Origin: Apoderus coryli
Taxonomy: Eukaryota > Arthropoda > Insecta > Coleoptera > Attelabidae
Reading direction: 5' to 3'
Length of the DNA: 64,000 nucleotides
NCBI GenBank assembly: GCA_911728435.2
Contig: OU452201.1
Span: forward strand, 17,112,001-17,176,000
The number at the start of each line of letters is the position of its first letter. Position 1 is the first letter of the stretch. Positions 1,851 through 63,269 of this stretch are shown here, one piece after another. The position numbers and the translations under genes are program-made. The notes under the pieces are model-generated. The model did not search any database. It was not told the DNA's origin and worked only from the letters and a program-made list of their open reading frames with translations.

Positions 1851-1892
1851 GGTCATATATGTTTCAAGACTTAAAGTCTCATCATCAGCTAA
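1851..1892 (-). ncRNA. Hammerhead-like ribozyme motif, degraded copy (locus A, left arm)
   Basis: On the minus strand CTGATGA (1888-1882) is followed by a hairpin AGACTT/AAGTCT and then GAAACATATA. Stem II is perfect. Stem III (ACATAT) has lost one pair, and stem I pairs poorly here, unlike the sister arm at 2335-2375. It is likely inactive even if the sister motif is functional. Confidence 0.4.
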
Positions 1893-2334: not shown

Positions 2335-2375
2335 GTCACTGATGATGAAACTTTAAGTCTTGAAACATGTATGAC
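2335..2375 (+). ncRNA. Hammerhead-like ribozyme motif (locus A, right arm)
   Basis: Reading the plus strand: GTCA (stem I), CTGATGA, one extra base, a hairpin of ACTT/AAGT type, then GAAA. A palindromic ACATGT can form a three-pair stem III, A fills the cleavage position, and TGAC closes stem I with GTCA by four Watson-Crick pairs. The architecture is that of a type I hammerhead with a minimal stem III. The departure from the textbook core is one additional base between CTGATGA and stem II. Function is inferred, not shown. Confidence 0.5.
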
Positions 2376-5699: not shown

Positions 5700-5862
5700 A
5701 ATTTAGTTGAAAATTTGATTTTTCTTGGGGTGCTCGGTTCTTATAAAATAATTTTGTTTTTAAACAAAAAACAATATCAATTTTTTATTTTCCACAAATT
5801 ACTTCAATAAAATGAACACGACGACGTTTCGTTACTAATTAGTAACTTCTTCAGGTTTGAAC
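5700..5862 (-). repeat. Hammerhead-family repeat with TTCTTGGGGT tail
   Basis: On the minus strand a CTGAAGA core (5854-5848) leads through a perfect hairpin (GTTACTAA/TTAGTAAC) to GAAACGTC. About 100 bases further is the complement of TTCTTGGGGTGCTCGGTTC (5713-5735). The same spacing between core and a TTCTTGGG-like string occurs at 9025-9124, 50030-50177 and 50234-50378, and weakly at 16340-16430, so this is one repeat family about 160 bases long. Only the first two base pairs of stem I are intact here. Confidence 0.65.
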
Positions 5863-9019: not shown

Positions 9020-9124
9020 TTTCTTTTTCTTGGGATAAAGGTTCTATTATAAAAGGGAATTATTATTTGAAATAATTTTTATTTCATGTCAGTACAACGT
9101 TCCGAGTCGTTCTTCTTCAGGTAC
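9020..9124 (-). repeat. Hammerhead-family repeat copy
   Basis: On the minus strand GTAC precedes CTGAAGA (9120-9114). A weak stem II and GGAACGTT follow, then GTAC, which pairs perfectly with the upstream GTAC as a four-base stem I. The GAAA element has become GGAA. About 70 bases beyond lies the TTCTTGGGAT tail shared with 5713 and the 50-kb copies. Confidence 0.6.
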
Positions 9125-29968: not shown

Positions 29969-30085
29969 GCCACTGATGATGGAATAAGTTCCGACACATC
30001 TCTGGCACTTTCACCGAACTTACGAGTTAAGCATATTATATAAAAGAAATTATGTGGAGTAGACGACGTTTGTTTTTTAAAATAC
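29969..30085 (+). repeat. Hammerhead-family repeat copy (GAAACAT subtype)
   Basis: GCCA, CTGATGA, one base, hairpin GGAA/TTCC, then GACACATC and TGGC (29969-30006). GCCA and TGGC form a perfect four-pair stem I. The GAAA element has one change (GACA) and stem III has lost one pair. A TGTGGAGTAGACGACGTTTG tail lies at about 30050-30070, as in loci A and C. Confidence 0.65.
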
Positions 30086-32040
30086 TTAATAATTGTTTGC
30101 CTATTATTTTTTCGATGAGTTTAGACATTGTAGGCAATATACTAAGCGATGCAAAAGTACGACGCTACGTCTTGAGAGGTCCAATTACCAAAACCTAAAT
30201 GCAAACATTTTTAAAATTTCCTTAAACCACTCTTATTTTATACAATGAATTTGTGTCCATAAATTTAATAAACGGAAAAATTACTGGTGTTATCTACACA
30301 AGGGATTTTGTTTAATTTAGCAGGGCGTCAGTCTAAATCAGTAGAACCAGACCGAGGCAATAAGAAATAGTCCATTATGTAATATAACAAATTGATTATT
30401 TCGTGGAGGATCGACTTTGATTCTTATTGCACTCTTAATTTTGTGTATGTGAATATTATATAATAGTGATCAGACAAAACAGGCATAATACTCAAAACTA
30501 GAGCGCACTATGGAGTTGTAAAGAGTCAAGAGACATTTTTTAATGTTAGTAAAACTGAGCATTCTCAATGCAATTTATAATGTTCATGTTGTTAAAAAAT
30601 TTAATAGGGTTTATTACCTATTGGATAAGATCTTCTCCCATGAAGACGCGTAAGCCAATGCTGAATGAGAAAGCTAAAAAAAAATCAATAGCAGTGTTGG
30701 CCAGCATCATAGCATTTTGAAAAATAAGAATTTTTAAGTTATTAGCACTTCTTACCAAACCGAAAACAGCTTTTGATGTTACGCCACTGGAATACACCTC
30801 TATATTAAGAGTAGAAACTTGGATTTGTTCATTAAGCTGTTTAATTGCATAGTATTATTTGTAAATTCGGTTTTAATTACATAATGTCAAAGTAGCAAAT
30901 TTTCACTGCACGCCACTGAATGCAATAACGTTCAATAAGTGCTTCAATCTTTTCTCGGCGCAAGAAATCCACTTTATGCAACATTATAGGAAAAAATACC
31001 AATTTTTACGAGACACCCCGAGAAAGTGCCTTTTTTAGAGAGACATGTATGTAATACTTTTAAAAATTCGATAATTTGAGTTATAGTCAACTTTCAAAAA
31101 ATTTGAGATATAACTTTTTTTAGGATAGTCCAAAGATCAAAAAGATACATAGAAAACTTTCCAAAAATTGAATTGAAAATCTGACATAGCCCTAAACTTT
31201 GCTAAAAAACATGACTTCCTTTGCTCACCCTGTATAAGTGGATAAATAAAATAAATATATCGGTCGAACCCTGTACGTGTTCTTAAAGAGTCGGTCAAGA
31301 ATCTCCCGAATACCTCAACTCGATATCTCTTTCCAATCCGAAAATATCGAGATTCGAGTTTGGGTACAATTTTCCATGTTGCAAAGCAACTGTCCACTAG
31401 TTTAATTCATTTTTAATACACCAACAATCCAAAAGATTTGCATTTCATTGCACCGTAAACAATCATATTAGCCCTCACTGTATGATGCACGTTACAAATT
31501 TTAGAAAATGAACATTGACAACCAGGGCAACACTGCACACAGTAGTGTAACGTGAGTGCAGCTACTTAGATAAGCAAATAATATATCACGTTGATCAAAA
31601 GACGTCTCCATCACAAAGGTTGCCTCTATTCACAACTGCAAAACCTTATTTCGGTTATCTACTCCACTATAACGTACACTCATATAATACACTATCTCTA
31701 TAGGTACAGAGGACACGATTTTGGGGAATATGCTGTATACCGTAGTGATATGCTCTGCTTCTTTGAAATCTGGTTGTTGCACGTTAAAATAATTACCAAT
31801 TTGCATTAACGTGTAGAGTGGTGTGAGAATAATGCATTATACATCCTTCTAGTTAAAAGGTGTAAGCATAAAATACAGGTATCTTGTTTGCTAAATTATG
31901 GGTATTTCTTTAATGGCAAATTTTTTTGTTCTGTTGCTTGTAGAATTTAATGTTTGTAAAACTAGAATTTTCTTTTATTTTAAACAAAATAAATTATCCA
32001 TCATCAAAGTGGAGTGTCAGTTTCAAATAAAAGAAAACAA
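30086..32040. other. No gene seen; isolated mariner-type termini
   Basis: GTGGAGGATCGACTTTGATTC (about 30399) is an orphan tail of the hammerhead repeat family. CACCCTGTATAAG (about 31224) is an orphan mariner-type end. TACGCCACTGG (about 30780) and ACGCCACTGAA (about 30909) are similar short strings of unknown origin. The 86-residue minus-strand frame at 31137-31397 is not convincing as protein. Confidence 0.45.
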
Positions 32041-32230
32041 ACAAAAACTTTCAAAGTCAACTCCACAAAATCTTTAATTTAATTATGAAAAAGGAAACTA
32101 GTTTCGGTTCAACAAGCCATCATCAATCCTACAATAAAGATAAAAACGAACGCACAAGAGAAATAAAACGTAAATCGGGCAACAAATTTGCACATAAGTT
32201 CATAACCTCCTCACACCCATCGATCCGACA
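32041..32230 (-). repeat. Hammerhead-family repeat copy (GGCT subtype), single
   Basis: The minus strand contains a hammerhead-like core at 32092-32130: AGGA, TTGATGA, one base, GGCTT/GAACC hairpin, GAAA, palindromic ACTAGT stem III, and TCCT. AGGA/TCCT makes a perfect four-pair stem I; the first core base is T instead of C. The tail TGTGGAGTTGACTTTGAAAG lies at 32050-32075. This copy is an uninterrupted relative of the repeat into which the 10.7-kb foldback element inserted, and it shows the unbroken ...TTTCTCTTGTGCGTTCG... junction. Confidence 0.75.
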
Positions 32231-33367
32231 TTCAGTAAAGCAACTTGATACACCTTTTATTATTTAATTATCTTCATAAGTAATACAGAAAAACTGGCAA
32301 ATTTTGTTTTTCATTTTATTAAAAAAAAAACCAGGTATCAGATATGAAACAGTGCGTTTCAAACACTACAAAAACTAACACATAACTTTAGTTAAAATGA
32401 CAATATAAATTAAAAAACGAAAGCAAAACGTCTGTCCTAAGTTCACACGAAACATGAAATTGATCTATCGGATGAAAATAACAAAAAAACATCACACCAG
32501 GCACTTTTGACATATGTCAACATTTTGCAGCCGGGATGTCTGCATTTAGCTCTAGACTTCTGGATAGATACCATTCATATGCAACGGCATATGCTTCGAA
32601 TCTTTGTTCCTGAAGCTTTTATCTGAAATAGGCAAAGTGAATTTTTTCCTTGGAAGCGGTTCGTCATCGCTATCGAAACGAAGTTGTTGACTCGGTTGTA
32701 CTAACAAGCAAAATTATAGCCAAAGCAAATTTAAATTCGATGGTAATGCCTTTTTGTCGCATCATCTCTATATTGCAGCCAACTCGCTGCAACACTAAAA
32801 TCGAAAAAGTATTGAATTGTTCTGATGGTCCATTTTCTTGTTCTAGAACTCATTGCATATTTGACTATACCCAAGGTATCATCTATGGTAGCCTAGGCTA
32901 ATGACATCTGAACATAGTAAAATAAAAATTTCGGTCCGTACTAACACATCTACCTAATACTAAACTCTATGAAATCACAATTCACAAAAGAAATCATGCT
33001 TACTTACCTCGATTTCCATATTTATTTTGTGCTGTATTCATTATGGTTGTTAAACATGAAACAAATTGATAAAAAGTGAGATTAAATAGCACCAACTCAA
33101 CTGACGCCCATATAAAGGGTTGTGGGAATTCATTATCAAATATTCTATGATGGGTGTGAGTGCAAAATTAACTCTGAATTGTAGGAAAAAAAATATAATG
33201 CTTTGGTATCATATATCACACCAAACCAATGAGGAGGATATGTCAAGAAAAAACTTACCATTTTTACAAAAACATCTGTGTACACAAAAAATATCAAATT
33301 ATAAATAACATTACACGAAAAGCAACTAACAAACAGGAAACTATCCTGTGTTGAGTAAGAGTTTAAC
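32231..33367. other. No gene seen; extra scrap of the neighbouring repeat
   Basis: AACTTACCATTTTTACAAAA at about 33252 is repeated at about 33524 and, inverted, at about 33572, so a third fragment of the locus B repeat lies here. The small frame at 32650-32901 has no family assignment. Confidence 0.5.
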
Positions 33368-33651
33368 TTTCAAAGTTAACTCCACAAAATCTTTAATTTT
33401 ATTATGAAAAACGAAACTATTTTCGGCTCAACAAGCCATCATTAGTCCTACAATAAAGATAATAACGAACGCACAAGAGAAATGAAACGTAAAATGGCCA
33501 ACAAATTTGTACATAAGTTCATAAACTTACCATTTTTACAAAAACATTATAGATATTTTTTCTGTACAGATGTTTTTGTAAAAATGGTAAGTTTTTTTTT
33601 ACCTGATGAACTTATGTACAAATTTGTTGGCCGTTTTACGTTTCATTTCTC
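33368..33651. repeat. Head-to-head inverted dimer (locus B), left part
   Basis: The minus-strand copy (33368-33547, hammerhead-like core at 33412-33450) faces a plus-strand copy starting at 33570, with a loop of only about 22 bases. The plus-strand copy is cut at 33651 by the foldback element and resumes at 44345. Arms share GTACATAAGTTCAT and AACAAATTTG. The left core has CTAATGA and a damaged stem III, so it is probably inactive; its stem II GGCT/AGCC is perfect. Confidence 0.85.
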
Positions 33652-34015
33652 ACCGGTGTGAAAATAGCAGCTAAAGATAGCAGCCAAAATATCCGAACAC
33701 GCACGAACGCCAGTAGCCTCGCACTATATGCGCGCGCACATCGTATCGAGCCAGCGCTCATGACGGGCACGAACAACTTGCCACGTGGTAATAAACATAT
33801 AATTTACAGACAAATAACTTATTTAAAAAATAATTCATAAAATTAATAATGAAGTTAATATTTTGCAAAATATTGGACCAAAAGACAGTTTGAAGGTGGA
33901 TGGTGAAAAAATACATTTTAATTTAAGCAAAACAGTATTGGGTAACAAATTACGTACCCATTTGCATTAGTACAATAATTTAACTAAAAATTAGTGGAAG
34001 TGACGTAATAGGGCG

Positions 34016-36795
34016 TTAAAAGATAGCAGCCAAAACCGTCCTAGTGGGGAAAACTTAATAACTCCGAAACTATTGACCCTGCCATATCGGGCATTCAGAG
34101 TGTGTTAGATAACAACATGGGCAATATAACGTATATACTCATTATCACTTACAGGCCGTCGCAGGGGCGTACTAAAGCTTTAAAAGATTGCAGCCAAAAC
34201 CCTCCTGATGGTGAAAAATTAATTACTCCGAAACTATTGAGCCTGCCATATCGGGCATTCAGAGTGGGTTAGATAACAACATGGGCAATATAACGTATAT
34301 ACTCACTATCACTTACAGGCCGTCGCAGGGGCGTACTAAAGCTTTAAAAGATAGCAGCCAAAACCCTCCTGATGGTGAAAAATTAATAACTCCGAAACTG
34401 TAGAGCCTGCCATATCGGGCTTTCAGAGTATGTTAGATAACAACATGGGCAATATAACGTATATACCCACTATCACTTACAGGCCGTCGCAGGGGCGTAC
34501 TAAAGCTTTAAAAGATAGCAGCCAAAACCCTCCTGATGGTGAAAAATTAATAACTCCGAAACTATTGAGCCTGCCATATCGGGCTTTCAGATTATGTTAG
34601 ATAACAACATGGGCAATATAACGTATATACCCACTATCACTTACAGGCCGTCGCAGGGGCGTACCAAAGCTTTAAAAGATAGCAGCCAAAACCCTCCTGA
34701 TGGTGAAAAATTAATAACTCCGAAACTATTGAGCCTGCCATATCGGGCTTTCAGAGTATGTTAGATAACAACATGGGCAATATAACGTATATACCCACTA
34801 TTACTTACAGGCCGTCGCAGGGGCGTACTAAAGCTTTAAAAGATAGCAGCCAAAACCCTCCTGATGGTGAAAAATTAATAACTCCGAAACTGTAGAGCCT
34901 GCCATATCGGGCTTTCAGAGTGGGTTAGATAACAACATGGGCAATAAAACGTACACACTCACTATCACTTACAGGCCGTCGCAGGGGCGTACTTAAGCTT
35001 TAAAAGATAGCAGCCAAAACCCTCCTGATGGTGAAAAATTAATAACTCCGAAACTATTGAGCCTGCCATATCGGGCTTTCAGAGTGGGTTAGATAACAAC
35101 ATGGGCAATATAACGTATATACTCACTATCACTTACAGGCCGTCGCAGGGGCGTACTAAAGCTTTAAAAGATAGCAGCCAAAACCCTCCTGATGGTGAAA
35201 AATTAATAACTCCGAAACTATTGACCCTGCCATATCGGGCTTTCAGAGTGGGTTAGATAACAACATGGGCAATAAAACGTACATACTCACTATCACTTAC
35301 AGGCTGTCGCAGGGGCGTACTAAAGCTTTAAAAGATAGCAGCCAAAACCCTCCTGATGGTGAAAAATTAATAACTCCGAAACTATTGACCCTGCCATATC
35401 GGGCTTTCAGAGTGGGTTAGATAACAACATGGGCAATAAAACGTACATACTCACTATCACTTAGAGGCCGTCGCAGGGGCGTACTAAAGCTTTAAAAGAT
35501 AGCAGCCAAAACCCTCCTGATGGTGAAAAATTAATAACTCCGAAACTATTGACCCTGCCATATCGGGCTTGCAGAGTGGGTTAGATAACATGGGCAATAT
35601 AACGTATATACTCACTATCACTTACAGGCCGTCGCAGGGGCGTACTAAAGCTTTAAAAGATAGCAGCCAAAACCCTCCTGATGGTGAAAAATTAATAACT
35701 CCGAAACTATTGAGCCTGCCATATCGGGCTTTCAGATTATGTTAGATAACAACATGGGCAATATAACTTATATACCCACTATCACTTACAGGCCGTCGCA
35801 GGGGCGTACTAAAGCTTTAAAAGATAGCAGCCAAAACCCTCCTGATGGTGAAAAATTAATAACTCCGAAACTATTGAGCCTGCCATATCGGGCTTTCAGA
35901 GTGGGTTAGATAACAACATGGGCAATATAACGTATATACCCACTATCACTTACAGGCCGTCGCAGGGGCGTACTAAAGCTTTAAAAGATAGCAGCCAAAA
36001 CCCTCCTGATGGTGAAAAATTAATAACTCCGAAACTATTGAGCCTGCCATATCGGGCTTTCAGAGTGGGTTAGATAACAACATGGGCAATAAAACGTATA
36101 TACTCACTATCACTTACAGGCCGTCGCAGGGGCGTACTAAAGCTTTAAAAGATAGCAGCCAAAACCCTCCTGATGGTGAAAAATTAATAACTCCGAAACT
36201 ATTGACCCTGCCATATCGGGCTTTCAGAGTGGGTTAGATAACAACATGGGCAATAAAACGTATATACCCACTATCACTTACAGGCCGTCGCAGGGGCGTA
36301 CTAAAGCTTTAAAAGATAGCAGCCAAAACCCTCCTGATGGTGAAAAATTAATAACTCCGAAACTATTGAGCCTGCCATATCGGGCTTTCAGAGTATGTTA
36401 GATAACAACATGGGCAATATAACGTATATACCCACTATTACTTACAGGCCGTCGCAGGGGCGTACTAAAGCTTTAAAAGATAGCAGCCAAAACCCTCCTG
36501 ATGGTGAAAAATTAATAACTCCGAAACTGTAGAGCCTGCCATATCGGGCTTTCAGAGTGCGTTAGATAACAACATGGGCAATAAAACGTACATACTCACT
36601 ATCACTTACAGGCCGTCGCAGGGGCGTACTAAAGCTTTAAAAGATAGCAGCCAAAACCCTCCTGATGGTGAAAAATTAATAACTCCGAAACTATTGAGCC
36701 TGCTACATTAATTTTTCAGAATACGTTAGATAACAAAATTGGAAATATAACCTATAACTCATTATCACTTACAGGCGGTCGCAGTGTATCGCCCA
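34016..36795 (+). repeat. 163-bp tandem array, left arm (about 17 copies)
   Basis: The unit contains GATAGCAGCCAAAACCCTCC, CTGCCATATCGGGC, GGTTAGATAACAACATGGGC and GGCCGTCGCAGGGGCGTACT. Successive GGCCGTCGC marks fall at 34319, 34482 and 34645, that is 163 bases apart. Copies differ at a few recurring sites (GAGTGGG/GAGTATG/GATTATG; ATTGAGC/ATTGACC/CTGTAGAGC; ATAACG/AAAACG; TATACTC/TATACCC). The innermost copy (about 36700-36790) is much more diverged. Short frames inside are artefacts of the period, since 163 is not a multiple of three. Confidence 0.97.
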
Positions 36796-36960
36796 CCCAA
36801 CACAATCTTGTTGCTGAAAAATATAATGCAATCTATTGTAGATCGCAATTTAAATGAACGGAAATTTTAGAAAAATTCATATTCTTCTTAACTTGGCTAT
36901 ATTTAATAAATCAATTTCAGGTACAAGGTACAACTAATATGTTATCTAATGGCCTAAATA

Positions 36961-37308
36961 TACAGGGTGAATCACGACCTACAGTTTATTATGCGAACTA
37001 CTTCGGTTTCACCTTATAATTTGACAGTACATTAAAAAAATATATAGAATTTGTAGGTATTATTATTTCCTATACCTACCTGTGACGTTTTACGCTTATT
37101 GGAAATCGTTAAAAATTACACTTAGCATATTTTCCAATCAAAATATACAGGGTACTGCGTGTCAGAAAATGAAGTCGCGAGTATCTATTTTATTAAAATT
37201 TATATATTCAATTCAGGACACCCTGTAGAATGTGAACTAACATTATTACCTTCATCTTTTTGTTTCGTAATTTTCCGAATTGTCCCGTTAGTCATGATTC
37301 ACACTGTA
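36961..37308. mobile_element. MITE with mariner-type ends and TA duplication
   Basis: The left end is TACAGGGTGAATCACGAC and the inverted right end is TACAGTGTGAATCATGAC, flanked by TA (36959-36960 and 37309-37310). It is 348 bp with no coding capacity. An internal TACAGGGTACTGCG at about 37148 may be a third terminus-like string. Confidence 0.78.
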
Positions 37309-37785
37309 TAAGTTAAAATAGGATGCACATCTTCAGCGCCTTTTGTAATTATATTGCAATAAAGGCATTATTATATTGTTTGAATAAAACTATAATATAC
37401 CTAAAATTACTATCAAAGTTCATCGAAGATATTTTACATGTATAGTATGGTAACCTGTATAAACACCGTGCAAAGAGAATAACTTTTGTCGGTGGTATAG
37501 GTACGTACCTAAAATGGACAGAATCTCAGTTGACGCGGCGCAGCGGCATTTTCGACATAAAGGAATCGCGCTTTGGTAGCTTTTGGCGGCTTTGCGTTAT
37601 AGGCGGATAGGTTGGTAGGAAAATCAGGATTAGGATGATATTCCGACAATGCATTTAAATTGTAAATATCATATATTTTCCGCTATGCCACAAAATAATT
37701 TCTCTTCTAATTATATTTTATACATATAGATATACATTACCTATATAGATGTACATTTAGGTATTTAATATTTAATGTATTTTAC

Positions 37786-37930
37786 TTTCCCGCACATGGA
37801 AAGTATTGTCAACACGCTAACAAAAAATTGAGATAAAGACGGATATAACCATTTTGAAGTTCCCTGAGACGATTAAGACCATTTCCAGATGGAAGTCTGT
37901 CTGTCTTTGTGTATGTGTGTATTTTATAAG
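37786..37930 (+). repeat. Dispersed repeat family D1, copy 5 (5' part), inside the foldback centre
   Basis: CCCGCACATGGAAAGTATTG, GAGATAAAGACGGATATAAC and TGGAAGTCTGTCTGTC match 11160-11285 with few differences. The rest of the family sequence is absent. Confidence 0.85.
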
Positions 37931-39119
37931 CAATAAAACAAATTTCGCACCTATGAAATCGTTGCATCAAGTCGTACGGACACCTAGTCCAATTTGGTGT
38001 GTTATAATTATTTATCTGGGGTAAAGCCATCTACTTCGTAATGAGAGGAAATGCATTTACGACGTGATCCTCACCCATATTTCTTGATAACAAAACGTTA
38101 TACAATATCTAAAAATACAAAACACTATAAAATTGTTTAAATAGTAATATTTTTCTTTACCTGCATAATGCCAAAAAACAAACAAACATTCTTTTTAATA
38201 AATACAATTTTCGATCGTTCGTTCTATAGCATTCAATTTTTGGTAATAATAGTAAACCAGCATTGAATATATCAAATCTACGTACCTACCTACTTTCAAT
38301 TTATCTAAATAGATAAAAACATACAAAATCAGTAATTACTTCTGTCATATTTAAAGAAATAATAATTTAAGAGACACGAGGTGTTATTAAAAGTATTATA
38401 TTATTTTTTTAAGGGAAATGGCTTTAGATGATTTATCCTTTAGCCACAGATTATCTAATAAAAAGTATTATTTTACTTACTTACTTTAATAGAAATAATT
38501 ATATAAATTATATCTTAGTTACAAAAGTAAAAGGAGAAGGAGATATTAAGTATTTCTATGTTAAAAAATGTAATATACCTACTGTGTAGGATGCTAAAAC
38601 GACCTAAATGTTTTAGTATTTATATTTATTTTGTGTAAATAAATTAAACTTTATATCTACGATAGATAAGTTTTTCATTTTACATGTTTCATAATTTCTG
38701 TACCCTACGTGTTCCAGGTTAGGTTAACTTTCATACTACATCTAAATGGATTGTTAGGATTCTCCAACTGATTATTACACATTTTCTTGTATTTTATTTT
38801 GGTAAAATACAATTGTTTTTAATTATTTGCTTTTTTAGAATATATTGTGTAAAATTATTTTAAATATTAGGTATTTTGGATATTTTGAATCACTAGGGCA
38901 GCTGTTTTATATTTTTACATTGTGCAATTGATTAGAAATAATAGTAATATAATATAATTTTAAATATTTAGTTCATGTTCAGGTATATAATAATAATAAT
39001 TATTATGTAGAAATCAAGCTATTGATAATTATCTTCTGCGTTTAAATAAATAAATTCCTTTTAAAGCCGCAGAACCATTGGTTCGGGGTTATTTATTTTT
39101 ATAAGTAGTTGCGTGATTT

Positions 39120-42100
39120 GGCTGCATTTTCATAGGCAATATGATTCTAACTTATTCGAAAAAATTAATGTGGCAGGTTCCATAGTTTCGGAGTTATTAA
39201 GTTGCTGCTATCTTTAAAGCTTTAGTACGCCCCTGCGACGGCCTGTAAGTGATAGTGAGTATATACGTTATATTGCCCATGTTGTTATCTAACCCACTCT
39301 GAAAGCCCGATATGGCAGGCTCAATAGTTTCGGAGTTATTAATTTTTCACCATCAGGAGGGTTTTGGCTGCTATCTTTTAAAGCTTTAGTACGCCCCTGC
39401 GACGGCCTGTAAGTGATAGTGAGTATATACGTTATATTGTTCATGTTGTTATCTAACCCACTCTGAAAGCCCGATATGGCAGGCTCAATAGTTTCGGAGT
39501 TATTAATTTTTCACCATCAGGAGGGTTTTGGCTGCTGTCTTTTAAAGCTTTAGTACGCCCCTGCGACGGCCTGTAAGTGATAGTGGGTATATACGTTTTA
39601 TTGCCCATGTTGTTATCTAACCCACTCTGAAAGCCCGATATGGCAGGGTCAATAGTTTCGGAGTTATTAATTTTTAACCATCAGGAGGGTTTTGGCTGCT
39701 ATCTTTTAAAGTTTTAGTACGCCCCTGCGACGGCCTGTAAGTGATAGTGGGTATATACGTTATATTGCCCATGTTATTATCTAACATACTCTGAAAGCCC
39801 GATATGGCAGGCTCAATAGTTTCGGAGTTATTAATTTTTCACCATCAGGAGGGTTTTGGCTGCTATCTTTTAAAGCTTTAGTACGCCCCTGCGACGGCCT
39901 GTAAGTGATAGTGAGTATATACGTTATATTGCCCATGTTGTTATCTAACCCACTCTGAAAGCCCGATATGGCAGGCTCAATAGTTTCGGAGTTATTAATT
40001 TTTCACCATCAGGAGGGTTTTGGCTGCTATCTTTTAAAGCTTTAGTACGCCCCTGCGACGGCCTGTAAGTGATAGTGGGTATATACGTTTTATTGCCCAT
40101 GTTGTTATCTAACCCACTCTGAAAGCCCGATATGGCAGGGTCAATAGTTTCGGAGTTATACATTTTTCACCATCAGGAGGGTTTTGGCTGCTATCTTTTA
40201 AAGCTCTAGTACGCCCCTGCGACGGCCTGTAAGTGATAGTGAGTATATACGTTTTATTGCCCATGTCGTTATCTAACACACTCTTAAAGCCCGATATGGC
40301 AGGGTCAATAGTTTCGGAGTTATTAATTTTTCACCATCAGGAGGGTTTTGGCTGCTATCTTTTAAAGCTTTAGTACGCCCCTGCGACGGCCTGTAAGTGA
40401 TAGTGAGTATGTACGTTTTATTGCCCATGTTGTTGTCTAACCCACTCTGAAAGCCCGATATGGCAGGGTCAATAGTTTCGGAGTTATTAATTTTTCACCA
40501 TCAGGAGGGTTTTGGCTGCTATCTTTTAAAGCTTTAGTACGCCCCTGCGACGGCCTGTAAGTGATAGTGAGTATGTACGTTTTATTGCCCATGTTGTTAT
40601 CTAACCCACTCTGAAAGCCCGGTATGGCAGAGTCAATAGTTTCGGAGTTATTAATTTTCACCATCAGGAGGGTTTTGGCTGCTATCTTTTAAAGCTTTAG
40701 TACGCCCCTGCGACGGCCTGTAAGTGATAGTGAGTATATACGTTTTATTGCCCATGTTGTTATCTAACCCACTCTGAAAGCCCGATATGGCAGGCTCAAT
40801 AGTTTCGGAGTTATTAATTTTTCACCATCAGGAGGGTTTTGGCTGCTATCTTTTAAAGCTTTAGTACGCCCCTGCGACGGCCTGTAAGTGATAGTGAGTA
40901 TATACGTTATATTGCCCATGTTGTTATCTAACCCACTCTGAAAGCCCGATATGACAGGCTCAATAGTTTCGGAGTTATTAATTTTTCACCGTCAGGAGGG
41001 TTTTGGCTGCTATTTTTTAAAGCTTTAGTACGCCCCTGCGACGGCCTGTAAGTGATAGTGAGTATGTACGTTTTATTGCCCATGTTGTTATATAACCCAC
41101 TCTGAAAGCCCGATATGGCAGGGTCAATAGTTTCGGAGTTATTAATTTTTCAACATCAGGAGGGTTTAGGCTGCTATTTTTTAAAGCTTTAGTACACCCC
41201 TGCGACGGCCTGTAAGTGATAGTGGGTACATACGTTATATTGCCCATGTTGTTATCTAACATACTCTGAAAGCCCGTTATGGCAGGCTCAATAGTTTCGG
41301 AGTTATTAATTTTTCACCATCAGGAGGGTTTTGGCTGCTATCTTTTAAAGCTTTAGTACGCCCCTGCAACGGCCTGTAAGTGATAGTGGGTATATACGTT
41401 ATATTGCCCATGTTGTTATCTAACATACTCTGAAAGCCCGATATGGCAGGCTCTACAGTTTCGGAGTTATTAATTTTTCACCATCAGAAGGGTTTTGGCT
41501 GCTATCTTTTAAAGCTTTAGTACGCCCCTGCGACGGCCTGTAAGTGATAGTGAGTACATACGTTATATTGCCCATGTTGTTATCTAACATACTCTGAAAG
41601 CCCGATATGGCAGGCTCAATAGTTTCGGAGTTATTAATTTTTCACCATCAGGAGGGTTTTGGCTGCTATCTTTTAAAGCTTTAGTACGCCCCTGCGACGG
41701 CCTGTAAGTGATAGTGAGTATGTACGTTTTATTGCCCATGTTGTTATCTAACCCACTCTGAAAGCCCGATATGGCAGGGTCAATAGTTTCGGAGTTATTA
41801 ATTTTTCACCCTCAGGAGGGTTTTGGCTGCTATCTTTTAAAGCTTTAGTACGCCCCTGCGACGGCCTGTAAGTGATAGTGAGTATATACGTTATATTGCC
41901 CATGTTGTTATCTAACACACTCTGAAAGCCCGATATGGCAGGCTCTACAGTTTCGGAGTTATTAATTTTTCACCATCAGGAGGGTTTTGGCTGCTATCTT
42001 TTAAAGCTTTAGTACGCCCCTGCGACGGCCTGTAAGTGATAGCGAGTATATACGTTATATTGCCCATGTTGTTATCTAACCCACTCTGAAAGCCCGATAT

Positions 42101-43972
42101 GGCAGGCTCAATAGTTTCGAAGTTATTAATTTTTCACCATCAGGAGGGTTTTGGCTGCTATCTTTTAAAGCTTTAGTACGCCCCTGCGACGGCCTGTAAG
42201 TGATAGTGAGTATATACGTTATATTGTTCATGTTGTTATCTAAGCCACTCTGAAAGCCCGATATGGCAGGCTCAATAGTTTCGGAGTTATTAATTTTTCA
42301 CCATCAGGAGGGTTTTGGCTGCTGTCTTTTAAAGCTTTAGTACGCCCCTGCGACGGCCTGTAAGTGATAGTGGGTATATATGTTATATTGCCCATGTTGT
42401 TATCTAACATACTCTGAAAGCCCGATATGGCAGGCTCAATAGTTTCGGAGTTATTAATTTTTCACCATCAGGAGGGTTTTGGCTGCTATCTTTTAAAGCT
42501 TTAGTACGCCCCTGCGACGGCCTGTAAGTGATAGTGGGTATATACGTTATATTGCCCATGTTGTTATCTAACATACTCTGAAAGCCCGATATGGCAGGCT
42601 CAATAGTTTCGGAGTTATTAATTTTTCACCATCAGGAGGGTTTTGGCTGCTATCTTTAAAGCTTTAGTACGCCCCTGCGACGGCCTGTAAGTGATAGTGA
42701 GTATATACGTTATATTGCCCATGTTGTTATCTAACCCACTCTGAAAGCCCGATATAGCAGGCTCAATAGTTTCGGAGTTATTAATTTTTCACCATCAGGA
42801 GGGTTTTGGCTGCTATCTTTTAAAGCTTTAGTACGCCCCTGCGACGGCCTGTAAGTGATAGTGGGTATATACGTTATATTGCCCATGTTGTTATCTAACA
42901 TACTCTGAAAGCCCGATATGGCAGGCTCAATAGTTTCGGAGTTATTAATTTTTCACCATCAGGAGGGTTTTGGCTGCTATCTTTTAAAGCTTTAGTACGC
43001 CCCTGCGACGGCCTGTAAGTGATAGTGGGTATATACGTTATATTGCCCATGTTGTTATCTAACCCACTCTGAAAGCCCGATATGGCAGGCTCAATAGTTT
43101 CGGAGTTATTAATTTTTCACCATCAGGAGGGTTTTGGCTGCTATCTTTTAAAGCTTTAGTACGCCCCTGCGACGGCCTGTAAGTGATAGTGGGTATATAC
43201 GTTATATTGCCCATGTTGTTATCTAACCCACTCTGAAAGCCCGATATGGCAGGCTCAATAGTTTCGGAGTTATTAATTTTTCACCATCAGGAGGGTTTTG
43301 GCTGCTATCTTTTAAAGCTTTAGTACGCCCCTGCGACGGCCTGTAAGTGATAGTGAGTATATACGTTATATTGCATATGTTGTTATCTAACATACTCTGA
43401 AAGCCCGATATGGCAGGCTCAATAGTTTCGGAGTTATTAATTTTTCACCATCAGGAGGGTTTTGGCTGCTATCTTTTAAAGCTTTAGTACGCCCCTGCGA
43501 CGGCCTGTAAGTGATAGTGGGTATATACGTTATATTGCCCATGTTGTTATCTAACCCACTCTGAAAGCCCGATATGGCAGGCTCAATAGTTTCGGAGTTA
43601 TTAATTTTTCACCATCAGGAGGGTTTTGGCTGCTGTCTTTTAAAGCTTTAGTACGCCCCTGCGACGGCCTGTAAGTGATAGTGGGTATATACGTTATATT
43701 GCCCATGTTGTTATCTAACCCACTCTGAAAGCCCGATATGGCAGGCTCAATAGTTTCGGAGTTATTAATTTTTCACCATCAGGAGGGTTTTGGCTGCTAT
43801 CTTTTAAAGCTTTAGTACGCCCCTGCGACGGCCTGTAAGTGATAATGAGTATATACGTTATATTGCCCATGTTGTTATCTAACACACTCTGAATGCCCGA
43901 TATGGCAGGGTCAATAGTTTCGGAGTTATTAAGTTTTCCCCACTAGGACGGTTTTGGCTGCTATCTTTTAAC
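39120..43972 (-). repeat. 163-bp tandem array, right arm (about 29 copies, inverted)
   Basis: This is the reverse complement of the left-arm unit, with AGTACGCCCCTGCGACGGCC as the repeating landmark. It is longer than the left arm by about 12 units, so the arms have changed copy number independently. A linked pair of rare variants (ATTGTTCATG with GCTGCTGTCT) occurs at about 39437-39540 and again at about 42225-42330, about 17 units apart, a sign of block duplication. The innermost copy (about 39120-39230) is diverged. Confidence 0.97.
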
Positions 43973-44344
43973 GCCCTATTACGTCACTTCCGCTAATTTT
44001 TAGTTAAATTATTGTACTAATGCAAATGGGTACGTAATTTGTTACCCAATACTGTTTTGCTTAAATTAAAATATATTTTTTCACCATCCACCTTCAAACT
44101 GTCTTTTGGTCCAATATTTTGCAAAATATTAACTTCATTATTAATTTTATGAATTATTTTTTAAATAAGTTATTTGTCTGTAAATTATATGTTTATTACC
44201 ACGTGGCAAGTTGTTCGTGCCCGTCAGGAGCGCTGGCTCGATACGATGTGCGCGCGCATATAGTGCGAGGCTACTGGCGTTCGTGCTTGTTCGGATATTT
44301 TGGCTGCTATCTTTAGCTGCTATTTTCACACCGGTTCATTTCTC

Positions 44345-44468
44345 GTGTGCGTTCGTTTTTATCTTTATTGTAGGACTGATGATGGCTTTTTGAGCCTAAA
44401 CTAATTTCCATTTTCATAATTAAATTAAAGATTTTGTGGAGCTGACTTTGAAAGTTTTTGTTTGTTTT
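44345..44468 (+). repeat. Locus B right arm, continuation beyond the foldback element
   Basis: GTGTGCGTTCGTTTTTATC follows directly on the target duplication and continues the repeat interrupted at 33651. The hammerhead-like core is at 44372-44410 (AGGA, CTGATGA, GGCT...AGCC, then TAAA instead of GAAA). The tail TTTTGTGGAGCTGACTTTG is at about 44434-44453. Confidence 0.85.
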
Positions 44469-44569
44469 CTTCTTTTATTTTACTTGTCTTGGTTTGAGGT
44501 TCACAATCATACACAAAAATTTGTTGTAACTATTTTTTTTTAAATAATAGTTTGATGTCAGTTTTTGTT

Positions 44570-49854: not shown

Positions 49855-50135
49855 AGAAGGAAATACTAAATTGTTATTCTTTTGTCTTAAACTAATGTAT
49901 CGTGTCTTTTTCGTTGTTCTTTCCTAATTAAACGTTATTATCAAAATCAGGCCAGTTCACTAATTTCTCCACGAATCTGTTGTAAAGCTTCAATATGTAA
50001 ATAATTTGATTATTAATAGCCTAATTTTTTTATTCTTGTTTTTCTTTAGGTTTCAGGTTCTTGAAAACAACATTTTTGTTTTAATTTTTAGCGAAAAATT
50101 ACATTTCGCTTGTCGAACTTTATTAAATAAACTAG

Positions 50136-50177
50136 TAACCACGTCTCGGCGATGGTTTGTCGCCTTCTTCAGGTCAT
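50136..50177 (-). ncRNA. Hammerhead-like ribozyme motif, tandem copy 1 (mutated)
   Basis: The minus strand shows TGAC, CTGAAGA, one base, a GGCGA/TCGCC hairpin with a seven-base loop, then GAGAC, GTG and GTTA. GAAA is changed to GAGA and the cleavage-site base is G, so it should be inactive. Stems I and II are intact. Confidence 0.5.
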
Positions 50178-50337
50178 TCTATTATTTTTTTCCCTTTTTT
50201 TTATGTTCTTGAACCATATTTCTTTTAATTTTTTTATTCTTGTTTTTCTTTGGGTTTCAGGTTCTTGAAAACGACATTTTTTTTTATTTTTAGCGAAAAA
50301 TTACATTTTGCTTGTCGAACTTTATTAAATAAACAAG

Positions 50338-50378
50338 TAACAACGTTTCGGCGATGGTTTGTCGCCTTCTTCAGGTCA
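50338..50378 (-). ncRNA. Hammerhead-like ribozyme motif, tandem copy 2 (best conserved)
   Basis: The minus strand reads TGAC, CTGAAGA, one extra A, GGCGA, a seven-base loop, TCGCC, GAAA, CGT, T and GTTA. Stem I (TGAC/GTTA, one wobble), stem II (five pairs) and the invariant core are intact. Stem III is the self-complementary ACGT with no loop, so the active form would be an RNA dimer, as known for Penelope-associated hammerheads. The extra base between CTGAAGA and stem II is the one departure from consensus. Confidence 0.6.
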
Positions 50379-50390
50379 TTCTATTATTAA

Positions 50391-51733: not shown

Positions 51734-53065
51734 TTGACACTGTTTATATTACAAAAGATGGGCTATATTGGTTTTCATTCAGATCTATTACAATTTTTTG
51801 ACTCTTACCTATCTGACCGCACACTATTCGTTGAGTATAATGGATTCAGGTCGAGGGGGTTTTCTGCGACCAGTGGGGCGCCTCAGGGTAGCAATCTGGC
51901 TCCTTTAATTTTCTCCATTTACATTAACGACATCGGATTGAATATAACGAGTAAGTTTCTGCTATTTGCAGACGATTTTAAATTATACAGGTTAATCGAA
52001 AGTAATGCAGATTGACTGCAACTGCAGGCTGATCTAGCAATGGTTGAGAGATGGTGCATAACCAACAGTTTACCACTAAATTTGTCAAAATGTAGGTTGA
52101 TGACATTTTCGAAGAGTCAGTTTCCTATTCGTTTTAATTACATTCTTAACAGCTCTGTACTAGAATTATCTTCTACCATTAGGGACCTTGGCGTGCTGAT
52201 TGATAGTAAGTTAGCTTTCAATTAGCATATAGATGCCCTTATTAAAGGTGAATTTCGGTCTCTGGGCTTTGTTATCAGAACAACAACAAATTTTCACAAC
52301 ATTAGTTGCTTAAAGATGTTTTATTTTTCCCTGATCAGGTCCAAATTAGAATATGCGTCTGTCATATGGTCACCAATATACCGTGTTCATGAGGACAGGA
52401 TCGAACGTGTCCAAAGAAAATTTTTTAAGTACGTATATTTCAAGGATCATGGACATTACCCTATAAGGGGATATGATAATGCACTATTGTTGCGCGGTTA
52501 TGACGTTCAACAACTGTCTGTGCGCAGGATCTGCGCCTATCAGGTATTTCTTTTTAAATTAATACATTTTCTAATTGACTGTCCCCAGCTCCTGAGTCAA
52601 ATAAAATTTCATATTTCGCAATACTATGCCCGCAACAATTATATATTCTAAATGTCGTATCTTCGAACCAACTATGAGGGACGTGCGCCATTGACTAGAG
52701 CTTGTAAGTTGACGAATACATTTAATTTACATCAAGAACTAGATTTTTTCGATGGCAAAATTGGCAGATTCCTGGCTGATCTGCGGAGATGCATGGGAAA
52801 TTTTATTTATTGAACATCAATATTGTTGTTTGGGTTCTAATGGTTGTTTTTATGTTTTATATAGTTATTGTTAAGACCTGTGGTGTTATTATATGGCCCA
52901 TGGGTACTCCTTCATCTGGTTATTTTGTATTATGAATAATTAAGCATTCTCGTACTTTTGTAGTTTGTTAGATTTATTTGATATTAATTGAAACTATGTA
53001 ATTTTTGTCTTGTAATTGGGCTCAGGCCTGTTAGGCAATAAATGATTATTTATTTATTTATTCTT
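51734..53065 (+). pseudogene. 5'-truncated Jockey-type LINE (reverse transcriptase C-terminus plus 3' UTR)
   Basis: A single 360-codon reading frame (51734-52813) is broken by three in-frame stops (52013, 52223, 52649) and no frameshift. It starts inside the reverse transcriptase (QKMGYIGFHSDLLQFFDSYL). It retains SGAPQGSNLAPLIFSIYIND (about 51876-51935), FLLFADDFKLY (about 51957-51990, the F/YADD box), RDLGVLIDSKL and FSLIRSKLEYASVIWSPIY (about 52325-52385), and ends LADLRRCMGNFIY. A 3' UTR follows with AATAAA at about 53036 and a TTTA-repeat tail (53045-53063), the end typical of Jockey-group elements. The first about half of the element is missing, as expected from incomplete reverse transcription. 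The lack of indels indicates a young insertion. Confidence 0.9.
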
Positions 53066-53844: not shown

Positions 53845-55460
53845 TATACAGGTTGTTTCAAAAAGACGCCGCAATATTTAATGAGGTGATTTTTCAGGTC
53901 ATTTAATGAAAAAAATCTACCATCCAACCTTTTAATCTCTTGCAGTTTGTTCATATTATGTTGCTTCGTTTACGAGATACAAATTTAAACAAACCAAGAA
54001 TAAGAATAATTCAACCAAAACTAACATTAACATTTCGAAGCAAGATAAAACTAAATAAATAAATAAAATTAACACCTAATACAAAACATTTCAAAAACTG
54101 TTGAAAGTGTAGGTACATGAATCCAATCTTCTCCTCATTGACTGGCGTACTCTCTCAAAAATACCAGGGTCATTTCTAATCGAATTACATCCAGCAATAA
54201 TGCGATTCCTTAGGCTCTCCACATTGTCCACAGAGGAGTAGCGTCAACTAAGGACTTCAGGTGGCCCCACATGAAAAAAATCCAGTGGGTTCAAATCCGG
54301 GGATTGCGCAGGCCATACATGAGGTCCACCTCGATCAATCCAACTTTAAAAAGTATTATGGAAAGCGGGAACAAAATCAGAAAACTAAACAAACAATAAA
54401 GCACGCGCTCTTTCCTTGGGTTACATAAATAGGCTGATCTAGAACAGTTCTATTAGGTATTATTTTTACATTGGTGTTACTGACCACGGAGGTGAGGTTC
54501 ATTCATGTGGACAGTAAATTTATTTGAAGAATAAAAATAGGATATTGTTTGTTAATTTAAAGTACAGTAAATTTACAAAACTTTTGAGTTTTCTGAAGCT
54601 TTAATATTATTTTTTGTTAACTAAATCGGTACTTACGAACAAAATCATTAAGTTTCTTTGAAGGCCTACACTATGGGACATGACACGGAAGTGAGAAGTT
54701 GACGTTTATAAATAAAAAAAAAATCATTATTAAATATTTTAGAAATTTTTGACAAAAAAGAACGCTTTTTGTTATACTCGTATAGTTTGCTATCAAGGTT
54801 ATATTTTTAACTAACAAAATGTATTGAAAAACTTTCAAGGACGCGAATATTACGTTTTTGTAACAATCACCCGTTTCTATTAAAAAGTCACGAGGAACCC
54901 GACTAAAACGCGTTGGTGCATTATCCACATTGCATTTTTTATTGCCGATGTACCTCTCCGAGTAACCCGCAATTCCAATCCAAGCGTTCAACGAGAACTG
55001 ATGTAGAAAATGATCTTCAACCATCGTAGGCGGATTTTCAACACACCATAAATGGTTATTGTGTAAATTCCATATTGCATTTCTTGCAAAACTCGCTTCA
55101 TCAGTAATCAAAATCAACATCAGTAGTTGACGAATTTCAACAACTTTTTGCAAAAGCCATTGACATAATGCCACACGAGGAAAATCAGCAGGAATAAGTT
55201 CTTCAACGCGTTGGATGTGGTATGGATATAACGAATTGTCCTTTAGAATGCGACAAACATCAGTACTATTACTTACATTCAAAACTTCAGCAACTTTTCG
55301 AGTAGAAGTACCTGGATTTTCTTCAACCATATTCAGCACATCATCTATCAGCTCTACCGTTCTTGCTGTAATTGGCCTTGCTGTTTTAGTGTGCCTGTTT
55401 CATAAAGGCGTCGATGAATGGCGTTCGAAAATTTTTCTATGAGTAGCCATAGGCTGAGAA
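53845..55460 (-). pseudogene. Mariner-type (DUF4817 family) transposase pseudogene with internal insertion
   Basis: The N-terminal half reads ENPGTSTRKVAEVLNVSNST, LYPYHIQRVEELIPADFPRV, FCQW-like CQWLLQKV, LITDEASFARNAIWNLHNNH (first catalytic Asp) and SLNAWIGIAGYSERYIGNK (55339 down to about 54940). After a deletion comes DNAPTRFSRVPRDFLIETG (about 54885-54935). Then about 500 unrelated bases intervene before WIDRGGPHVWPAQSPDLNPL-DFF (about 54270-54345) and a C-terminal FERVRQSMRR (about 54130-54170). A terminus-like ATACAGGTTGTTTCAAAAAG lies at 53846. Most motifs are readable, so this copy is relatively young but dead. Confidence 0.87.
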
Positions 55461-60968: not shown

Positions 60969-61440
60969 ATATACAGGGTGTTTGGAAGGTCAATAGAAAG
61001 TCTTGGGGAGGTGATAGGGCAGACCATGTAGAATCTTTTATGCCAAACATACCTTAGTACAAAGTTTTACGGTTGTCGAGATATTCGGATTTTGAAATTT
61101 AAATCATAAATTTGTAAATGAAACAAAATAAACTATTGAAACATGCTTTATTGGTGCTCAGAGTGAGAACCATTGTTTCTAATACATGCTTGAGCTCTGT
61201 GTCTTACTTCGGTAGTTGTTGTATGTAATAACCTGTCTTGCTGCATTACTTGAAAAGCTTCTCGAATTTTTCTTATTAAATGGTTTCGTGATACGATTTC
61301 TTCAGTATAAACTAACTCTTTAGCCCGCCCCCAGACATACACCAATGGTGTCGAGTCCAGGGATCTAGCAGGCCACAGAACATTGAGTTGGTCCACCTCT
61401 GCCTCTTCAGCTACTTGGAAAAATATCATCGAAATATTGT
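60969..61440 (-). pseudogene. Mariner-type (DUF4817 family) transposase C-terminal fragment with one terminus
   Basis: The minus-strand frame (61429-61148) reads VDQLNVLWPARSLDSTPLVY, VWGRAKELVYTEEIVSRN, IREAFQVMQQD and RHRAQACIRNNGSHSEHQ. This corresponds to W-PARSPDLTPLDFFLWG--K-LVY...ARACI-ANGGHFEH. SPD is changed to SLD. About 180 bases downstream is the terminus ATACAGGGTGTTTGGAAGG (60971). The 5' part of the element is missing. Confidence 0.82.
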
Positions 61441-61961
61441 CTTCCGTCTAAACGGAAATGATATTCAAATATATCAGATATTAAACATGTTGAACTCACC
61501 ATTTGTTAAAGATGAGTGTGCTCTTGAGCATATTAAATTGATTTGTTTGTGGAGTTGACAGGTTTTATTTGAATCACTTATTTATTATTTGTTTGCAGTC
61601 AATTTGTTTTTGTGTGTTCTCCAAATAAAAAAAAACACACACAAAAATATACCGGGTGCTCCATTTATCTTGAGATAGCCTTATATCTTAAAAACGGCTC
61701 ATTTTTCGCAAAAAAAAAATCAAATAAAAGTTGTTTGCTTTCGTGGGGCAAATGCAAATGCAATTTTGTATATTCCTCCAAAATAAAACTATTTTCGGAA
61801 TTGTTACGTAAATTACTATTATTGGATACATAAATAATAATCATGCTGGAAAATAATAAAAAAAAACGCTGTCGCATAAAACTAAAATAAATTTGCCTAA
61901 TTGAATCAAACCACTCGAATACAATAAACTGAACAAAACAAATACATAAATCTTTAAGGAA
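61441..61961. other. No gene seen
   Basis: ATACCGGGTGCTCCATTTAT at about 61647 is another orphan transposon-type terminus. The 105-residue minus-strand frame ending at 61665 has no family assignment and is compositionally AT-driven. Confidence 0.45.
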
Positions 61962-62036
61962 AAATACACGTCTACTCCACAAATGAATATGTATATTATC
62001 TTTTCATAAAAATAATCGTCAATCAACAATCATCAA

Positions 62037-62067
62037 ACCATACATGTTTCGGGAAATCATCAGTGGT
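62037..62067 (-). ncRNA. Hammerhead-like motif (locus C, left arm), stem II deleted
   Basis: The minus strand reads ACCA, CTGATGA, TTTCCC, GAAA, palindromic ACATGT overlapping it, A and TGGT. Stem I (ACCA/TGGT) and stem III are intact. The 5' half of stem II has been lost by an about 10-base deletion relative to the right arm. Confidence 0.5.
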
Positions 62068-62308
62068 ATATAAAAATTTTTTAAAAAAGAAAATGAAAAA
62101 GAAAAGGAGAAAATACATTCAAAGCATAACTATGTATTTCTGTGATGTAATTCAATATAATTAAGTTCTATTGTTTCGTATAATTTTCAATTAAAAAATT
62201 TTTCAACAAGTGGTAAGGACTTTGGCAATTCATTATTGATATTGTGTGGTTTAACACTCGATTGATTTTTTGTAGAATATATAACTTTCTATATTTCCCA
62301 ATTTATAT

Positions 62309-62350
62309 ACCACTGATGATGGGAACTAGATTTCCCGAAAGATGTATGGT
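62309..62350 (+). ncRNA. Hammerhead-like ribozyme motif (locus C, right arm)
   Basis: ACCA, CTGATGA, one extra T, GGGAA, loop, TTCCC, GAAA, then GATGT, A and TGGT. Stem I has four pairs and stem II five. Stem III has one mismatch (AGATGT instead of ACATGT in the sister arm). The two arms are thus each damaged at a different place, and together they define the intact ancestral motif. Confidence 0.55.
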
Positions 62351-62427
62351 TTGATGATTGTTGATTGACGATTATTTTTATGAAAAGATAATATACATAT
62401 TCATTTGTGGAGTAGACGTGTATTATT

Positions 62428-63269
62428 GCTTAAAGATAAAAATTACTCCTGGCAGGAAGATGGACTATTTTTACAAATACATAAATATTAACTTAACTGG
62501 ACTATGCATTGAAACTAACTAATTACAAAAAACTCAGAATTAATAATTATCTTCTAATAATGAGAACTGGGTGATTTCTGCATTCTTCCCAACAATAATA
62601 GTGAACAATAATATTTTAATAAACAATCATTGTTATACCTCTGGCATAATAAAAAGGATTTTTCTTTTTGTAAATCATTAAGATTGATACTGATTTTTTT
62701 TATATAAAATTATAATTTACGAAAACATGTCTATCTTATTGTATTTTATTAGACAATTAATTAAGTGGGAAAAGTCATGTACGTCACCTGTGATTTAATA
62801 ACTTGAAGTTGTTAACAATATGTGTTGGCGGCTTCAGCCATTAACCATATACACACATATATTTATAGATTAACTACTTCGTCCAACAAATACAACTTTA
62901 CGTTATTAAATGACAAGTGACTTTTCTCTCTTAATTAGTTTTCTAATAAAATACAAAAGCTAGACACGTTTTCGCAAATTATAAGTTTATATACAAAATC
63001 AGTATTAATCGCAATAATTTATAAAAAGAAAAAACCTTTTTATTATGCCAGAGACATTACAATGTTTGTTTGTTAAATATTCTTGTTAACCATTATGAAA
63101 TCCTAGAGATTTATATTTAGTTTTTTCCTTTCACTAAGTTACCTATGTAACTCATTTCCAAACGGATGATGACCCTATAGCTAGCGTCAAAACATGTATT
63201 TTTATTATTTGAAGAAGAGATTATTGGCTCAATACTGTTAAGCCCGGACTAACAGTCAGGTCGGTCAAC
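62428..63269. other. No gene seen
   Basis: A degenerate hammerhead-like string (GGATGATGACCCTATAGC...AAAACATGTA) lies at 63163-63202. Otherwise it is AT-rich DNA without features. Confidence 0.45.

Follow-up and report, generated by a model that had tools for sequence, protein, structure and literature searches.

Hammerhead motifs of Penelope type lie in head-to-head inverted insertions in the beetle Apoderus coryli

Short motifs resembling type I hammerhead ribozymes recur within a 64,000-nucleotide stretch of Apoderus coryli DNA (contig OU452201.1, positions 17,112,001 to 17,176,000 of the forward strand; hereafter the window). What kind of element carries them, and why do some lie in mirror-image pairs? 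An earlier note on this sequence had described at least six such loci with covarying stems, among them 62309-62350, and had cited as established that Penelope-like retroelements (PLEs) carry type I hammerheads. We find it likely that the motifs are hammerheads from the pLTRs of Penelope-like retrotransposons, some of them in short derivatives of these elements, and that the dimers arise from priming on two strands.

The motif letters and the pairing of stem I were present at all seven coordinates given in that note. The set was incomplete: with four further copies (at 1852-1892, 33411-33449, 44372-44410 and 50136-50176), the window has about a dozen copies of a PLE-type hammerhead motif, as follows.

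62309-62350, plus strand: minimal type I hammerhead motif with ACCA/TGGT as stem I, GGGAA/TTCCC as stem II and a G.G in stem III
62037-62067, minus strand: mirror copy of the preceding motif, with the 5' half of stem II deleted
2335-2375, plus strand: hammerhead of the A family, with an A.C in stem II
1852-1892, minus strand: mirror copy in the A family, absent from the earlier set
29969-30006, plus strand: solo hammerhead arm with GAC in place of GAA and a box (described below) at 30054-30064
33411-33449, minus strand: D-family hammerhead, left arm of a head-to-head pair, absent from the earlier set
44372-44410, plus strand: D-family hammerhead, right arm, with a 10.7-kb foldback-like insertion between it and the left arm, absent from the earlier set
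32092-32130, minus strand: solo D-family hammerhead arm with T instead of C3
50338-50378, minus strand: hammerhead of the CTGAAGA class within a 202-bp direct tandem, the sole strict-descriptor match in the window
50136-50176, minus strand: tandem copy of the preceding motif, changed at two conserved places, absent from the earlier set
9092-9124, minus strand: damaged motif of the CTGAAGA class with GGA for GAA
5831-5846, minus strand: stem II of a further PLE-type motif (GTTACTAATTAGTAAC), the same stem II as at the PLE loci L059, L060 and L084/L085

The seven noted stretches follow the order of a type I hammerhead: stem I, CTGANGA, one extra nucleotide, the stem II hairpin, GAA, a loopless palindrome, one nucleotide and the other strand of stem I. 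Stem III lacks a loop in the 11 aligned window copies, and where undamaged its palindrome is ACATGT, ACTAGT or ACGT. The type I core (CUGANGA and GAA, with H at the cleavage site and stem I open) is intact in many genome copies and damaged in most window copies. Only 50338-50378 fits the strict descriptor; several of the other noted motifs carry the damage listed above. The stem II GGGAA/TTCCC is present at 62309, and its mirror copy has lost half of it. The stem II GTTACTAA/TTAGTAAC, which had been mentioned without a coordinate, could be placed at 5831-5846 on the minus strand; by eye, stem I of this copy is not fully paired. At 1852-1892, again by eye, the 5' strand of stem I is broken by a hairpin repeat that begins there (an 80-bp self-complementary insertion at 1889-1968, on the margin of this hammerhead).

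This architecture is close to that of the minimal PLE type I hammerheads (Cervera & De la Pena 2014; Lunse et al. 2017), which, as far as review descriptions of them go, share the type I order, the missing loop III, the pLTR location and a presumed dimeric action. A possible difference is the extra nucleotide that the copies here have between A9 and stem II (11 of 11 window copies, as we aligned them), which could be detrimental to activity.

To what extent do these motifs exceed chance? Three descriptors, all permitting one extra nucleotide ahead of stem II, were compared with shuffled sequence; a first scan that permitted none gave no match. The medium descriptor matched three places (2335, 32092 and 50338) against a shuffle mean of 0.23, and none of 60 shuffles reached three. 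The strict descriptor matched once (shuffle mean 0.017; 1 of 60 shuffles reached one match). The loose descriptor was near chance, with 14 matches against a mean of 8.3 and 2 of 60 shuffles reaching that number; loose matches thus carry little weight by themselves.

The stems are more informative. In the 11 window copies, 40 of 44 stem I pairs are formed (shuffle mean 20.8; none of 100,000 shuffles as high), and sliding the partner strand by 1-3 positions leaves 14-25. For stem II, 36 of 40 pairs are formed in 10 window copies, a value that 1 of 100,000 shuffles attained. In an alignment of seven window sequences, 84.3% of the cells are paired against 67.4% after shuffling, and 15 cells are changed on both sides against 5.8 (none of 500 shuffles as high for either). 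Two weaker measures were closer to the shuffles. Six pairs show a change on both sides, against 4.1 shuffled (37 of 500 shuffles as high), and 10 further pair types occur, against 9.0 shuffled (187 of 500). Stem III in this alignment is 64% paired and shows no double change.

Because sister copies share ancestry, pairing at the level of families is the fairer figure. For this we used one full-length copy from each of ten genome families, chosen by us, with the A family combined from its two copies. Every pair is formed, 30 of 30 in stem I (2 of 200,000 shuffles as high) and 40 of 40 in stem II (none of 200,000). Compensatory change thus holds for stems I and II, and the covariation that the note had asked to see tested on genome copies is borne out. 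In nine of the ten families stem III is a short loopless palindrome (ACATGT, ACGT or AGCT); the D family has ACTAAT in the copy used for this set and ACTAGT at 32092. It is extremely improbable that the motifs are chance matches or relics that never experienced structural selection. Such a reading would suit the loose descriptor and the damage in most window copies, but it leaves the full pairing of ten families to a coincidence that shuffling almost never produced. That the hammerhead has been kept through ten families argues for a function, perhaps the trimming of multimeric transcripts.

Standard models did not recognize the motif. The Rfam hammerhead models, a search the note had proposed, gave no match over the whole window, at the gathering cut-off or at E 10, nor in two 81-base stretches; an absent model match is one half of a condition that the note had named as refuting its reading. 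A covariance model built from seven window copies gave 32 matches; it recovers its own training copies by construction, and it also finds 62037-62067, which lies outside the training set, at E 1e-4, as well as weak candidates at 4379-4412 (E 0.024) and 63159-63202 (E 0.14). The motifs at 50338, 50136 and 9092 are not among its 32 matches, which indicates that two hammerhead classes differ. A pattern scan of viral contigs returned two matches, coding-like by eye, where about two were expected by our own estimate, and we took them as chance.

The mirror-image copies lie in the arms of inverted pairs. Two complete insertions can be delimited in the window.

61952-62472, no strand: complete head-to-head PLE-derived insertion of the H family, 521 bp, holding 62309-62350 and its mirror copy 62037-62067
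61938-61951, no strand: left target-site duplication ACAAATACATAAAT, 14 bp
62473-62486, no strand: right target-site duplication ACAAATACATAAAT, 14 bp
62407-62417, plus strand: box GTGGAGTAGAC near the outer end of the right arm, a proposed reverse-transcription start region
61970-61980, minus strand: box GTGGAGTAGAC in the left arm
1749-2444, no strand: second complete head-to-head insertion, A family, with the left arm on the minus strand (long end) and the right arm on the plus strand (short end)
1738-1748, no strand: left target-site duplication AAAAAATATCT, 11 bp
2445-2455, no strand: right target-site duplication AAAAAATATCT, 11 bp

The H insertion consists of a left arm on the minus strand with a short outer end, a centre, and a right arm on the plus strand with a long outer end. 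Self-comparison aligns its arms (61950-62074 and 62302-62437) in inverted orientation at 89.7% identity, and the 14-bp duplication sets its ends. None of 2115 random pairs of 75-nt pieces of the window share 14 bases. The paired arms and the target duplication show that 62309-62350 is one half of a single 521-bp insertion. Consequently, 62037 and 62309, which the note had listed together, are not independent loci. In the A insertion, 2339-2445 matches 1888-1783 in inverted orientation; here the duplication is less exclusive, as 12 of the 2115 random pairs share 11 or more bases.

The arms of each window pair read outward as centre, hammerhead, variable linker, box GTGGAGTWGAC and end. By eye, the linker varies between families while hammerhead and box stay. 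With up to two mismatches the box occurs at 27 places in the window against 12.6 expected (none of 100 shuffles as high). In both the H and the A pair, the short end lies 17-18 nt past the box and the long end 52-55 nt. The D arms (33365-33527 and 44332-44480) each match the solo arm at 32025-32208, and no target duplication was found in the flanks of this pair. The 10.7-kb foldback-like element that parts them (33652-44335) is embedded in the D hammerhead element, within its right arm. Its ends, ACCGGTGTGAAAATAGC, are in inverted orientation, both of its arms hold arrays of a 164-bp satellite (34016-36784 and 39204-43971), and by eye it is flanked by a 9-bp duplication, TCATTTCTC, at 33643-33651 and 44336-44344. 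The satellite was considered as a retrozyme (CTGATGG...GAAAC) and rejected by eye, as its core and stems do not fit.

We then asked which coding elements carry the same hammerhead, using searches of the 428-Mb assembly in which all copy counts are lower bounds. There were at least 43 matches to the H arm (40 of 130 candidates scored), at least 43 to the A arm (40 of 436), at least 89 to the C-class arm (40 of 895) and at least 150 to a fragment of a PLE reverse transcriptase (150 of 1395). Most named protein relatives of a PLE from this assembly are from insects; the best-scoring named one is labelled as a bacterial metagenome bin, and one is from a rotifer.

The C class provides the link to PLEs that the note had drawn. 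Its pLTR hammerhead, as read in locus L034, is GCCA-CTGATGA-T-GGAC..GTCC-GAA-ACATGT-C-TGGC, followed by the box, and the stem I letters at 29969 in the window are identical to those of this family of coding PLEs. The pLTR repeats every ~3.6 kb in arrays such as <- <- <- -> -> on C1, and the pLTR of this unit is 99-100% identical to the C-class arm of L034, hammerhead and box included. An open frame spans 1.5 kb between two pLTR copies, with a match to RVT_1 (E 1.7e-10). The same frame runs on for another 1.0 kb before it reaches a stop, and GVYLLKCG..YIGQTGR within this stretch is by eye a GIY-YIG-like nuclease; Pfam gave no match for this 1.0-kb piece. Thus the C class at least has a coding element, and its hammerhead-bearing pLTR borders the reverse transcriptase frame. 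Among the copies inspected, those of the H, A and D families are all non-coding. L034 also contains (218-1744) a palindromic C-class element with arms about 99% alike, a 12-bp target duplication and one short and one long end, which is probably young.

A second group of loci, L062 to L065, are whole inverted dimers with arms 98.6 to 99.97% alike, in which each side has an open reading frame (765 to 864 aa) and a hammerhead close to its outer end. In the open reading frame of the F62 family, Pfam found no RVT_1 and only GIY-YIG, below the cut-off. As seen by eye in L062-L085, PLE families of the CTGARGA class have in common an AC-rich stretch close to the outer end, for example CCTTAACCCCAAGAA, at the place where the window class carries GTGGAGTWGAC; the two could be two kinds of reverse-transcription start signal. 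In the window, Pfam on X-masked frames beside 9092 and 50136-50378 found only an RVT_1 remnant at ~51.8 kb (51734-52648, by eye of LINE type).

The short elements might instead be retrozymes, spreading as small circular RNAs cut out by their hammerheads. They share with animal retrozymes (PMC7229834) the short non-coding format and a type I hammerhead, and 50022-50388, the only direct hammerhead tandem in the window, is built from a 202-bp unit. In the portions of PMC7229834 and PMC7761336 that describe them, however, animal retrozymes are direct tandems with canonical hammerheads, whereas the short window-class elements form inverted dimers flanked by target duplications, and a coding frame adjoins the C-class pLTR. 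We consider a retrozyme origin improbable.

We counted the orientation of close neighbours among the listed genome places. Among the 150 PLE reverse transcriptase places, neighbours within 5 kb are head-to-head 19 times, tail-to-tail never and direct once (two of the 19 pairs have identical spacing and may be one duplicated segment). For the C pLTR, 45 of the 89 places gave eight head-to-head, no tail-to-tail and seven direct neighbours within 6 kb. Within 5 kb, the A arms gave eight, none and none, and the H arms five, none and one, the last being one copy split in two. Altogether, 40 close neighbours are head-to-head and none tail-to-tail, a count that gives no share of insertions that are dimers, since most places had no scored neighbour.

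The outer ends, which lie ~45-135 nt past the hammerhead, show a second regularity. We retrieved four whole PLE dimers and both ends of ten more; L082/L083 (no alignment) and L084/L085 (no reference for the class) were left out of the classification of ends. Of the 12 classified, 11 combine a short with a long end, the two differing by about 30 to 54 nt, with boundaries set by hand and, for L065 and L080/L081, inside AT repeats. The remaining one, L070/L071, which is part of a three-ORF array, has two long ends. A script found exact duplications of 11-15 bp flanking 8 of 13 PLE dimers and none at L070/L071 and L084/L085; the flanks of two dimers lie in AT repeats and are uninformative, and at L062 a 15-bp duplication, TTTCTTTATAATAAT, was missed by the script and seen by eye. 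When PLE flanks were mismatched, 154 of 156 pairs shared 8 bases or fewer and two reached 16 and 22. Six of seven window-class pairs have duplications of 11-16 bp, and in all six of these the box is 11-20 nt away from one end and 49-60 nt away from the other; 1 of 42 mismatched window-class flank pairs reached 11 bases. Over both groups, 17 of 18 classified dimers combine a short and a long end, for which our own arithmetic gives a probability near 7e-5 if the two kinds were equally likely and independent. An inverted pLTR with a tail on one side and a target duplication is therefore a recurrent feature, present in many dimers and not in every one. The note had not described the head-to-head pairing, the target duplications or the coding elements; the motif itself is of a known kind, and what is new is the dimer architecture.

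Inverted arms, non-coding short elements and target duplications would also be seen if the arms were terminal inverted repeats of a cut-and-paste DNA transposon with an incidental hammerhead-like fold. We regard this as very improbable: the duplications vary from 11 to 16 bp, the two ends of one insertion differ by ~30-54 nt, and the C-class pLTR borders a reverse transcriptase frame and forms direct tandems.

A more serious alternative is copy-back, in which a single nucleic acid primes its own synthesis to give the dimer; this has been proposed for the PLEs of Adineta vaga, with an antisense template. The portion of PMC3846280 on these elements proposes self-priming from palindromes at the inverted junction, and calls head-to-head the commonest inverted arrangement. 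It also describes features common to both genomes, namely inverted pLTRs with unrelated sequence captured between them, together with an optional 31-bp tail on one inverted pLTR and duplications of 8-10 bp. The typical Adineta vaga copy described there consists of a direct element and, next to it, an inverted pLTR, whereas here we find whole ORF-bearing head-to-head dimers, short dimers bearing the ribozyme motif, and duplications of 11-16 bp, counted over the listed genome places. The palindromic centre of L034 fits copy-back, as do the arms of L062, identical over 3196 bp; since L062 and L063 differ by only 2 substitutions, this identity cannot separate one template from two. Copying back through the element end, however, predicts an inverted duplication of the flanking target and the same end on both arms, while in the dimers here the two flanks are unlike, a direct duplication is usually present, and almost every classified dimer is short at one end and long at the other. 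Self-priming does not predict two different ends with a direct target duplication, which tells against the rotifer-type explanation here. We consider it doubtful, though a credible contender.

Returning to priming on two strands, we propose the following sequence of events. The element RNA would carry its hammerhead near the 3' insertion end, and two motifs would pair through the loopless stem III (ACATGT or ACGT palindromes) for cleavage, as reported for PLE hammerheads. By analogy with other PLE hammerheads, cutting would require a dimer and perhaps bound protein as well. The PLE protein would make a staggered cut at the target, and the 3' ends of both target strands would prime reverse transcription internally, downstream of the hammerhead, one strand starting at the short site and the other at the long site. 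Both cDNAs would run inward and have their 5' ends joined, and repair would leave the 11-16 bp duplication. The product would be a head-to-head inverted dimer with both 3' ends outward, an architecture that accounts for hammerheads in mirror-image pairs. L1-type twin priming was not favoured, as the two arms share one and the same 3' end.

The nearest experimental counterpart is the Poseidon PLE PAc of the green anole. According to the sections of PMC11167929 that describe it, its hammerhead lies at the pLTR-ORF junction and cuts 26 bp into the ORF. Reverse transcription by the purified protein starts internally, in an AC-rich region 111-118 bp inside the ORF and so 85-92 nt beyond the cut, at two sites matching the tail, and both strands are cleaved and extended. 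The hammerhead was dispensable for insertion in vitro and cut only with protein present. In contrast to the dimers here, PAc loci are described as tandem repeats, the section on insertion mentions no dimer product, and the closing scenario draws no two-ended conclusion. Taking the cleavage and extension of both strands in the anole together with the dimers here, the most economical interpretation is that a single staggered cut lets each of its two strands prime a cDNA.

PLEs are relatives of telomerase, and on how they insert PMC11167929 leaves the steps after first-strand synthesis unvalidated. A more general proposal would be that PLEs integrate by two-ended target-primed reverse transcription, with the head-to-head dimer of one short and one long end as the normal product and tandem or single copies as secondary; our judgement of this wider claim is evenly poised. 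Solo arms count against two-strand priming, both in the window (29969 and 32092) and in the genome, where most H- and A-arm places have no scored neighbour. The many near-identical head-to-head dimers, mostly with a duplication and nearly always with a short and a long end where classified, turn it into a testable prediction on PLE integration. We did not find a two-ended model in the PLE and hammerhead literature searched, mostly at the level of listings or passages; the portion seen of a Drosophila virilis transposon paper (PMC12910113) has nothing on head-to-head Penelope copies.

Other repeats accompany the insertions in the window. At 60970-61642 lies a partial copy of a repeated ~1.1-kb element with ~125-bp terminal inverted repeats, mariner-like by eye, which keeps only a hammerhead relic near 61494-61559. 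Copies of this element elsewhere (L020-L024) carry a hammerhead inside, four of them with a visible inverted partner arm, indicating that the DNA element multiplied a captured hammerhead pair. A 242-aa open stretch at 54674-55399 on the minus strand resembles by eye a mariner-type transposase remnant, with no Pfam match at 0.001. The H insertion is adjoined by an inverted repeat at 62595-63096, whose arms of ~230 bp are 76-85% alike and which is probably a miniature inverted-repeat element. Finally, a 222-bp unit is present in four tandem copies at 17921-18827, with 94% matches.
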